A stretch of DNA of 64,000 nucleotides from Natrinema pellirubrum DSM 15624 (lineage in GTDB: Archaea; Halobacteriota; Halobacteria; Halobacteriales; Natrialbaceae), in the NCBI RefSeq assembly GCF_000230735.2, contig NC_019962.1, forward strand, positions 1,488,001 to 1,552,000. Reading direction: 5' to 3'. Numbering within the stretch: position 1 is the first letter of the stretch; every line of letters starts with the position of its first letter. The notes under the pieces are model-generated. The model was not told the DNA's origin, ran no database searches, and worked only from the letters and a program-made list of their open reading frames with translations. Positions 1,862 through 35,906 of this stretch are shown in pieces. The position numbers and the translations under genes were made by a program.

Positions 1862-3100
1862 ATGGAAGAACACAGTACCGTGGTCGACGTTCCTGTCGAA
1901 AAGGCCAAACAAACAGTTCACCAGTACGGGCTCGGTCTCCTCTTCGCAGCGAATATTTTCGGAGCCGGGTCCGTCTACATCCTGACACAGGCGGGCGTCA
2001 GTTTCGGGTTCGGCCTGTTGTGGGTCCTGCCGCTGGCACTCGGCGTCGGGCTGACGATGCACGAAATGTCGGCTCGCCTCGCGGCGAAGGACGAACCGCT
2101 CATGGACTATATCAGGGACGTGATCGGCCCGACGGCGGCGAAACCGTTCGCGCTCGGAATCGCGTTCATCATGCAGTTCTGGAGCGTGGCGAACTACGCG
2201 CTCGCGGGAGCCGCACTGGTCTTTCTGACCCCACTGTCGAACCTGTACGTGGGGATAATCCTCATGGCGGCGCTGGGCATCTCGCTCGTTGAACTCCGGG
2301 TGTACAGCCGCATCGAGGGCGTCATCGCGACGCTCGTTCTCGCGATCTTCGCCTCGTATCTGGTCATCGTCGCGAACCTCCAGCCCGCGCTTGGCGGCGT
2401 CGCGATGGGGTTCGTCCCGACGATATCCGGTGATCTGAACTATCTCACGATGATCATCGCGCTGATGGGGACGACCGTCTACTATCCGAACTTCTTCATC
2501 CAGACGAGCATGCAACACGAGAAAGACTGGACGAACGTCTCCCGCTACCGCAAAGATCACACCGTCGGACTGGCGGCCGTCGTCGCGCTCAGCGCGACGG
2601 TCGTCATCGCGGCGGCGATGGCCGTCCCCGACGGGACGCTCACCCTGACTGCCCCCGCGGAACCGCTGATCGACATGATCGGCCCGTGGGTACTCGGGGT
2701 GTTCGTCCTCGCGGTCGGTGCCGCCTCCTTCACGAGCGCGACCGGAACGCTGTTCGCCGCCGGCTTCATGGTCCCGCAGTCGTACGAACTCACGACCCAG
2801 TTCGGCGACATGCACTTCCGCCGGACCGTCCACTTCCTGATCGGCCTCTCGGTCGTCCTCGCGATCCCGATCCTCGCGTTCACCGACTTCACGCCGGTCA
2901 GGCTGGCGCTGCTCATGCCCGCCGTCAACGGCGTCGTCGGGCTGCCGATCACGGCGCTTGCACTGTTTGCGGCGATCAAGCGCTACTTCGAGCCGAGTCG
3001 ACTCGAGCAAGCGATTTTCTTTGCGGCCGTGGTCGCGATGTTCCTGACGTCGCTCGTGACCGCCGAATCGCTCGTTCGCTCGATCGCCGGGCTGCTCTGA
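1862..3100 (+). CDS. NRAMP-related divalent metal transporter-like membrane protein
   Basis: The product is 412 aa with about 11 hydrophobic segments and an arrangement typical of NRAMP/MntH proteins: a GAGS-containing first helix, then GLLWVLPLALGVGLTMHEMSARLA resembling the NRAMP segment ending in Q-x-S-x-R-L. The canonical metal-binding DPGN of TM1 reads GAGS here and the TM6 MPH motif is replaced by VYYPNF, so this is a divergent relative and metal specificity cannot be assumed. I chose the ATG at 1862; an in-frame ATG at 1802 would add 20 polar residues without family character. It stands alone and the next gene is 77 bp downstream. Family placement is fairly secure; substrate is unknown. 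Confidence 0.72.
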   Translation: MEEHSTVVDVPVEKAKQTVHQYGLGLLFAANIFGAGSVYILTQAGVSFGFGLLWVLPLALGVGLTMHEMSARLAAKDEPLMDYIRDVIGPTAAKPFALGIAFIMQFWSVANYALAGAALVFLTPLSNLYVGIILMAALGISLVELRVYSRIEGVIATLVLAIFASYLVIVANLQPALGGVAMGFVPTISGDLNYLTMIIALMGTTVYYPNFFIQTSMQHEKDWTNVSRYRKDHTVGLAAVVALSATVVIAAAMAVPDGTLTLTAPAEPLIDMIGPWVLGVFVLAVGAASFTSATGTLFAAGFMVPQSYELTTQFGDMHFRRTVHFLIGLSVVLAIPILAFTDFTPVRLALLMPAVNGVVGLPITALALFAAIKRYFEPSRLEQAIFFAAVVAMFLTSLVTAESLVRSIAGLL

Positions 3101-33896: not shown

Positions 33897-34952
33897 TCAG
33901 AACAACCCGTTCAGCGCCGACCGGAGCCGGGAGAGCGGTCCGCTCGAGCTGTCGGACTCCGTCGTCGATCCGTCGTCCTCGGCCGTGGATTCGTCGGCGT
34001 CGTCCGTCGGACCGTCGCCCTCGTTCGCGGCGGTATCCCGGTCGTCGGTCCCGAGAGAGGGGATCGCGTCGGGCACATCGTCGGCGTGGGTCGCGGTCCC
34101 CTCGAGGCCGTCAGCGAGGTCGGGGTCGGCACCGTTCTCGGCGTCGCTCTCGCTCGTGGCGGTATTGGCGCCAGCGTCCTCGAGGGGGGCCTCGGTCTCG
34201 GTGTCCGCCGGCGATACCGCGCCGTCGGCGTCCGAACTCGTGTCGTCTGTCCCGGGAGCCGAGTCGCCCTCGGACGACGGTTCGGATTCGATGGGCACCG
34301 TGGCGTCGGGCTCGTCCTCGATGCACGTGTCCGTCTCCGGATCGGTCGACGCATCGTCGAACTCGAGGGCCGTGTCTGCCCCGGTCTCGGACTCGTCCGC
34401 CGTGCCGTCGGCAGCTCCCGGTTCGGCTGCGCCGTCGGGTTCAGACGCGGCTCCCTTATCGTCGACCGCATCGCCGAAGACGTCGTCGAGGTCCGTCCCG
34501 CCGGCTTCCCAGGCCGGTGTCGACTCCGTATCCGACGCCGACTGGGAACCAGCAGTCGCCGTCGACTCCCCCGAGCCATCGGGATCGACCCAGTGGAACT
34601 CGCCCTCGCCGTCGGTCGAGCGGCCGGTCAGCAGGAGGTCCGTGAGTTCGTCGTCGTCGGCCAGCAGCGCGTCGTCGATCGTTTCCGTCTCCGGCTCGGG
34701 GTCGTTCGCGCTCGCGATGATATCGTCCGGACTCTCGTCGGCGAGGATGTCGTCGCTCCCACCCACGTCGGCGTCGTCTCGGAGTTGATCGAAGACATCC
34801 GCCGCCGTCCGGTCCTCGGCGGCGTCGATTCCGGACGCGTGTTCGTCGCCTGACTCGGCTGCCGCCTCGAGGTCTCCGAGGTGGTCGTCGGCGTTCGAGC
34901 CCGTCTCGAACGCGCCCTCGCCCGGAGTGATGTCCGTCGTACTATCGTACAT
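33897..34952 (-). CDS. Highly acidic low-complexity protein of unknown function
   Basis: The product is 351 aa, dominated by Asp, Glu, Ser, Thr, Ala and Gly, with no predicted TM segment or signal peptide. The N-terminal 110 residues are more ordered (ADVFDQLRDDADVGGSDDIL, DDDELTDLLLTGR, FHWVDPDG). A 12-residue C-terminus with PLSRLRSALNGLF forms an amphipathic basic helix that could attach to a membrane or partner. The acidic middle is likely disordered. I recognise no family. Start at ATG 34952; another ATG at 34970 is possible. Confidence 0.65.
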   Translation of the reverse strand: MYDSTTDITPGEGAFETGSNADDHLGDLEAAAESGDEHASGIDAAEDRTAADVFDQLRDDADVGGSDDILADESPDDIIASANDPEPETETIDDALLADDDELTDLLLTGRSTDGEGEFHWVDPDGSGESTATAGSQSASDTESTPAWEAGGTDLDDVFGDAVDDKGAASEPDGAAEPGAADGTADESETGADTALEFDDASTDPETDTCIEDEPDATVPIESEPSSEGDSAPGTDDTSSDADGAVSPADTETEAPLEDAGANTATSESDAENGADPDLADGLEGTATHADDVPDAIPSLGTDDRDTAANEGDGPTDDADESTAEDDGSTTESDSSSGPLSRLRSALNGLF

Positions 34953-35207
34953 ACGCTCGCTCTCTATCAATGGATTATCACGCGACTTTAATTTTTGGAA
35001 TTTTTTCAGTCACGGCGGACGATATTGCTGTCGGATTACTCTACTGGCCGTCGGGAGCGTCTGACGGATACGGAGTTGACAATTGTTCAGTAAAACGCCG
35101 ATTCGGATTCCGGTTCGAAGAATCAGGGGTTCGGAGTGATCGGCGTAGAGTCGGCCGTCCCTTCGCCGTCGGCGAATCGGTACAATACCTATTACTCGAG
35201 CCGATGT

Positions 35208-35348
35208 ATGCTGGTCGGTACCACGACTGAGATCGAGGACGACGACTTCCTCGACCGCGCGTACGAACCGTCGGCGACGGACCTGGTCTGTCGGTTCCGC
35301 CTCGAGCCCGCTGTGGGCCTGTCGATGGTCGGCTATGTTCCGTCATAA
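35208..35348 (+). pseudogene. Remnant of a form III RuBisCO large-subunit gene (N-terminus only)
   Basis: A 46-codon frame whose middle matches the RuBisCO N-terminal domain: DDFLDRAYEPSATDLVCRF and RLEPAVGLSM, the pattern of archaeal form III enzymes (FLD-x-x-YEPS-x-x-DLVC-x-FR-x-EPA-x-G-x-SM). After SM the homology ends abruptly at VGYVPS and a stop, where a full protein would continue for about 370 more residues. A TATA-like TACAATACC lies 25-35 bp upstream. No other RuBisCO segment is in the window, so the gene has been truncated by deletion. Assignment rests on motif recognition. Confidence 0.68.
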
Positions 35349-35408
35349 AACCAGACATTTGTCTAGAATTTAGGAAAATTATTATAGATGTAGTTTCGAT
35401 TGGTTTTC

Positions 35409-35906
35409 ATGGCTTATAGACGATCACGGCGCGGTGGGGTTCTCTCACCGGTCACCGTTCTCACGACGGTGACGGCCGCGCTGATCGCCGGCGTGGCTCT
35501 CGGTGGCGTGTTACACGCGACTGGGAACCTTCGAACGGTCGCCGCCGTCTACGGACTCGAGGGGGTCGTCAACGAGTGGACGCTCGTGTTCGGGCACAGC
35601 GTCCTCGCCGCTGGGCCGTTCGTCGCGCTCGTGAACCGCCTGCGGATGGGACGGCGCGTTCCGCGTCCGCTCGCGGAGAGCTATCGGAACCCGTTCCTCT
35701 GTGCCTGCCTGGGGACTGCGTACGGCGTCGTACTGTGGGTCGCCATCATCGCCTACGGAGCGCCGTTCGTGTTCGGACTCGTCACCGCGACCGCGTCTCC
35801 GGTGCCGCACCGACACTGGGGCGCGTTCTATGCGCTGCTCGTGTTCGGAGCGGTCTGTGGTGCGTGGTATCCGCTGCTCCGGGAGTTCTTCGAAGACCGC
35901 CAGTAG
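35409..35906 (+). CDS. Small integral membrane protein (about four TM)
   Basis: The product is 165 aa from ATG 35409; an ATG/GTG at 35400 would add three residues. Basic N-terminus (YRRSRRGG), then hydrophobic helices near 17-38, 50-70, 95-120 and 135-155, ending in a charged tail EFFEDRQ. The upstream sequence is AT-rich with TTATTATAG as probable TATA, about 30 bp before the start. No motif that I can name. Located just after the RuBisCO remnant. Confidence 0.65.
   Translation: MAYRRSRRGGVLSPVTVLTTVTAALIAGVALGGVLHATGNLRTVAAVYGLEGVVNEWTLVFGHSVLAAGPFVALVNRLRMGRRVPRPLAESYRNPFLCACLGTAYGVVLWVAIIAYGAPFVFGLVTATASPVPHRHWGAFYALLVFGAVCGAWYPLLREFFEDRQ

Follow-up and report, generated by a model that had tools for sequence, protein, structure and literature searches.

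A non-carboxylating pentose bisphosphate pathway has been described in halophilic archaea, in which RuBisCO-using and RuBisCO-free nucleoside pathways are scattered in a manner unrelated to phylogeny, according to the accessible text of Sato et al. 2022 (PMC9700705), where Natrinema pellirubrum is placed among the species that have ribose-1,5-bisphosphate (R15P) isomerase and lack RuBisCO. Here we describe a stretch of 64,000 nucleotides from N. pellirubrum DSM 15624 (the window; NC_019962.1, positions 1,488,001 to 1,552,000) that carries a remnant of a form III RuBisCO large-subunit gene (rbcL). The window lies on a contig of 3,790,479 bases in a genome of 4,354,100 bases that is 99.9% complete in 3 contigs. 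The nearest relative, N. thermotolerans DSM 11552, is ∼96% identical over the DNA around the remnant, and the named relatives of the neighbouring gene all belong to Natrinema or Haloterrigena.

The remnant, or stub, is contained in an open reading frame of 46 codons (35208-35348, + strand) with the translation MLVGTTTEIEDDDFLDRAYEPSATDLVCRFRLEPAVGLSMVGYVPS*. A preliminary description had taken this frame for a fragment of form III RuBisCO, and that identification is upheld by two profile matches and by tblastn. The frame aligns with model positions 1-28 of both Pfam PF02788 (RuBisCO_large_N; E 1.1e-4; 22.8 bits against a cut-off of 20.7 bits) and NCBIfam TIGR03326 (form III RuBisCO; E 5e-5), and its first ∼35 codons are 56-68% identical to the intact rbcL genes of congeners (tblastn, E down to 1e-13). 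When the window was scanned with the rbcL N-terminus, the stub scored 50.8 bits, as compared to 19.6 bits at the runner-up site and at most 20.4 bits in 20 shuffled windows, so the similarity is not due to chance. Tblastn, Pfam, NCBIfam, and the congener alignment together place codons 1 to ∼30 of rbcL at 35223-35312 (+). Only this segment is cleanly RuBisCO, as the last ∼12 codons are junction and 3′ flank. Nor was the ATG at 35208 the start codon of the ancestral gene: comparison with congeners puts that start at 35223-35225, where all 14 intact genes have ATG and the window has ACG. Within codons 1-35, 22 residues are invariant among the 14 intact genes, and the stub is altered at 7 of them, whereas any intact gene left out in turn alters 0-1 such residues. 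These changes, along with the ACG start, indicate a remnant under relaxed constraint. Because over 90% of rbcL is absent from it, including the catalytic domain, the stub is, to judge from its sequence, not a RuBisCO but what is left, without function, of a form III RuBisCO gene that was once complete.

An intact 416-codon rbcL occupies the same site in 14 of 29 Natrinema genomes, which identifies the stub as the product of a deletion. The window aligns with these intact loci to about codon 36 and again from just past the stop codon, leaving ∼1.2 kb unaccounted for (e.g., 1208-2409 of locus L012), as expected from the earlier proposal that all but the first segment of the gene had been deleted. 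The junction zone, GTGGGCCTGTCGATGG (35313-35328, +), was compared with its two presumptive parents, the intact rbcL of G011 around codons 31-36 (GACGGGATGTCGATGG) and the sequence 3′ of rbcL in N. thermotolerans (locus L023; GACGGGTCCTGTTCGATGG). Since both parents carry GACGGG-N(2-3)-TGT(T)CGATGG, the breakpoint can be placed only to within codons ∼30-36, and the residues GLSM, lying within this microhomology, may derive from either parent. The remaining bases (35329-35348, +), read by chance as GYVPS*, are former 3′ flank, as they are also present after the rbcL stop codon in L023. Recombination or slippage between imperfect direct repeats of ∼17 bp, the first within rbcL and the second in its 3′ flank, would be the simplest account of the junction.

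Upstream of the stub, alignment with the regions preceding the 14 intact rbcL genes revealed a retained block, CGGTACAATACCTATTA (35178-35194, +), whose CTATTA element begins 34 nt 5′ of the old rbcL start codon. The block is promoter-like and probably served rbcL in that role, which is consistent with the earlier suggestion that the promoter might have been left behind. The flanking genes likewise mark the site. The upstream neighbour (33897-34970, − strand) encodes an acidic protein and is also found upstream of intact rbcL in all 14 congeners that have it, and the downstream neighbour (35412-35906, +), whose product is small, hydrophobic, and membrane-like, comes immediately after intact rbcL in 9 of the 14; neither has a Pfam or NCBIfam match. 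Upstream of the membrane-protein gene there is also a palindrome-like motif, CTAGACATTYGTCTAG (35351-35366, with one mismatch in the window), which is conserved in several congeners (e.g., L012 2414-2429 and L023 5937-5952) and might serve this gene as an operator.

The preliminary description had made its metabolic consequences depend on whether a second rbcL copy exists. None was found: a profile search of all three contigs with RuBisCO_large (PF00016) gave no match, and a genome search with the RuBisCO N-terminal domain returned only the stub site and one weak match. It had also expected the RuBP branch to be removed or reduced in this strain. RuBisCO is indeed lost, but the genome retains R15P isomerase (TIGR00511, 442.7 bits; cut-off 314), whose presence elsewhere in the genome had been proposed as a check, and, in the same gene cluster, ATP-dependent R1P kinase (NF053626, 449.5 bits; cut-off 330). 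This cluster also encodes a uridine-phosphorylase-like protein, a possible candidate for the guanosine phosphorylase (Urdpase1) of the pathway, which scores below the TIGR01718 cut-off. At ∼775,836-777,184 of contig G000:C1, two adjacent genes overlapping by 4 bases encode a predicted RuBP 5-phosphatase (NF053830, 394.8 bits; cut-off 330) and a predicted Ru1P aldolase (NF053831, 363.6 bits; cut-off 300). These identities were assigned by homology to curated NCBIfam equivalogs; with all four enzymes encoded, RuBP retains a predicted outlet that requires no carboxylation. AMP phosphorylase, an entry enzyme that the preliminary description had proposed to look for, is absent here: TIGR03327 gave only a weak partial match in the source genome (31 bits; cut-off 535), and the enzyme is absent from most of the genus, with full-length genes confined to the related, RuBisCO-bearing G002, G012, G017, G020, and G025. 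One genome without intact RuBisCO, G019, carries a C-terminal piece of AMP phosphorylase (positions 377-494, at G019:C8:343987-344340), perhaps another remnant of the pathway.

Further pieces of rbcL were found at the same site in other Natrinema species. N. thermotolerans (G007) retains codons 301-416 and the stop codon and has lost the 5′ part; G004 retains codons 141-254 in two frames; G008, codons 227-269 and 369-416; G016, codons 380-416; and G019, codons 199-228. By eye, G005 perhaps keeps some 20 bases of the rbcL 3′ end, and the remaining RuBisCO-less Natrinema genomes have no significant rbcL piece at the site. In the genus tree, the source genome, G007, G004, and G005 form one clade with support of 100/100. 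As the window and G007 hold opposite ends of rbcL, their ancestor must have had both, and two separate deletions must have followed the split between these lineages. The genus tree calls for a minimum of four to five changes in RuBisCO state, and the rbcL gene tree roughly parallels it.

The distribution of the two RuBP outlets within the genus follows an either/or pattern: of the 29 genomes, 14 have only RuBisCO, 11 have only the phosphatase/aldolase pair, and 4 have neither. The pair is present in every one of the 11 genomes that lack RuBisCO and have R15P isomerase, between pyrE and thrS wherever contigs extend that far, and in none of the 14 RuBisCO-positive genomes. The four with neither outlet (G015, G021, G026, and G028) are also without R15P isomerase and seem to have dropped the pathway altogether. 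Additional class II aldolases in G010 and G016, being only 44% identical to the Ru1P aldolase, were not counted as such. The association is strong when relatedness is left uncorrected (Fisher p 5e-5); however, only four independent sister contrasts involve branches with strong support (p 0.125 in a sign test), so with relatedness taken into account it is suggestive and not significant.

Across 391 haloarchaeal genomes, RuBisCO and the phosphatase occurred together in 17 by raw count, as compared to 47 expected. Six of these 17 overlaps were due to OiaX-type RuBisCO-like proteins, leaving 11 genomes with both as compared to ∼45 expected. Seven belong to the same family as the source (G034, G036, G239, G240, G258, G342, and G343) and four to the same order (G066, G074, G161, and G269); RuBisCO was confirmed by sequence in three of the 11 (G034, G036, and G066). 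Because these 11 genomes outside the genus count as having both, strict exclusivity across the class was rejected; the two outlets can coexist, and presence of the pair does not invariably entail loss of RuBisCO.

The direction of the replacement is suggested by the fragments. At least 6 of the 11 pair-carrying Natrinema genomes contain rbcL fragments, and a DNA model search found no fragments of the pair in RuBisCO-carrying ones (Fisher p 0.0007 with G005 as the seventh, relatedness uncorrected), an asymmetry that favours loss of RuBisCO in the presence of the pair. In five genomes with RuBisCO, apparent phosphatase leftovers (residues 79-124, ∼35% identity) lie 5′ of thrS; they were rejected, as the match of the DNA model at these places is essentially limited to a conserved stretch immediately preceding thrS. 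As judged by curated family models, R1P kinase and R15P isomerase make RuBP from ribose 1-phosphate; we propose that the pair would convert RuBP to Ru1P and then to DHAP and glycolaldehyde. This alternative outlet, probably present before RuBisCO was lost, would have made RuBisCO dispensable and permitted piecemeal, independent deletions in several Natrinema lineages. We thus regard the stub as a dead rbcL remnant, left by a repeat-mediated deletion once an alternative RuBP outlet had made RuBisCO dispensable, with a probability of roughly 90%, and repeated, recent decay of RuBisCO after functional replacement as the most likely course of events in the genus.

Two other explanations of the stub itself are very improbable. 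The frame is open, begins with ATG, and has a promoter-like block upstream, as would a small protein recruited from the RuBisCO N-terminus; yet the otherwise 96% identical N. thermotolerans has deleted exactly this part, residues conserved in RuBisCO are drifting, and the ATG at 35208, only 14-19 nt past CTATTA, probably lies upstream of the transcript start. Even less credit is due to the idea that a normal rbcL was lost through misassembly or sequencing error. Although only a single assembly was examined, it is nearly complete (3 contigs, 99.9%) and without a RuBisCO_large match, the stub differs from intact genes by substitutions, one of them in the start codon, as well as by the deletion, and close relatives likewise have no intact rbcL at the site.

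How the genus came to be divided is less clear-cut. The Natrinema ancestor may have had both RuBisCO and the pair, each lineage keeping one, in which case the stub would reflect the sorting of redundant outlets. The common pyrE-thrS site of the pair in all 11 genomes, gene trees for the pair that, like that of rbcL, roughly follow the genus tree, and the occurrence of both outlets in other genera would all be expected under such differential loss, which we nevertheless consider the less probable history. The one-sided distribution of fragments speaks against it, as does the divergence at fourfold sites: 0.15 for the HAD gene as compared to 0.30 for rpoB between G000 and G016, and 0.08 as compared to 0.21 between G022 and G008. 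Some pair genes are thus more alike than core genes and too similar for vertical descent alone, which suggests that they were exchanged between species. The strongest form of the replacement reading, that the two outlets are true alternatives in this genus, having both being selected against and each acquisition of the pair triggering loss of RuBisCO, is one we hold only tentatively, with the odds somewhat against it; under this reading, Natrinema would comprise closely related species in which the RuBisCO pathway was swapped several times for a non-carboxylating one. Decay of a dispensable RuBisCO, as proposed above, implies that RuBisCO is ancestral at this Natrinema site and that separate deletions are eliminating it from species equipped with the alternative enzymes. 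The remnants show how the scatter of pathways among haloarchaea can arise. Sister species that differ in this respect (RuBisCO in G010, the pair in G027; likewise G011 and G016) make the reason for RuBisCO loss testable in closely related hosts.

Among known systems, the stub is closest to form III RuBisCO (TIGR03326; PF02788 plus PF00016), with which it is homologous over codons 1 to ∼30, and it occupies the syntenic position of rbcL in Natrinema; unlike a working enzyme, it has no catalytic domain and has lost its start codon. It is unrelated to the OiaX-type proteins (3-oxo-isoapionate-4-phosphate decarboxylase, NF042437) of some haloarchaea, including G016, which match the RuBisCO_large profile and are 29-37% identical to the rbcL of the genus. 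The one OiaX-type protein that was scanned scored best with OiaX, below the OiaX cut-off. The second RuBisCO-like gene of G016 (locus L064, G016:C2:146500-151500, at ∼1899-3100, − strand) is 29% identical to the genus rbcL and has an apparent frame shift around codon 363; loci L173-L178, of which four lie on secondary contigs, contain similar OiaX-like genes. In the accessible text of Sato et al. 2022 (PMC9700705), pathway type is inferred from the presence or absence of genes, RuBisCO remnants are not mentioned, and the word pseudogene does not appear; our literature search likewise found no earlier report of a RuBisCO remnant or pseudogene in Natrinema. The source genome encodes equivalogs of the R1P kinase, R15P isomerase, RuBP 5-phosphatase, and Ru1P aldolase of the pathway as that text describes it. 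Pseudogenes that persist after functional replacement are ordinary and of a known kind; what the present locus adds is its place in a series of differing remnants within one genus, together with a complete either/or split between two RuBP outlets.
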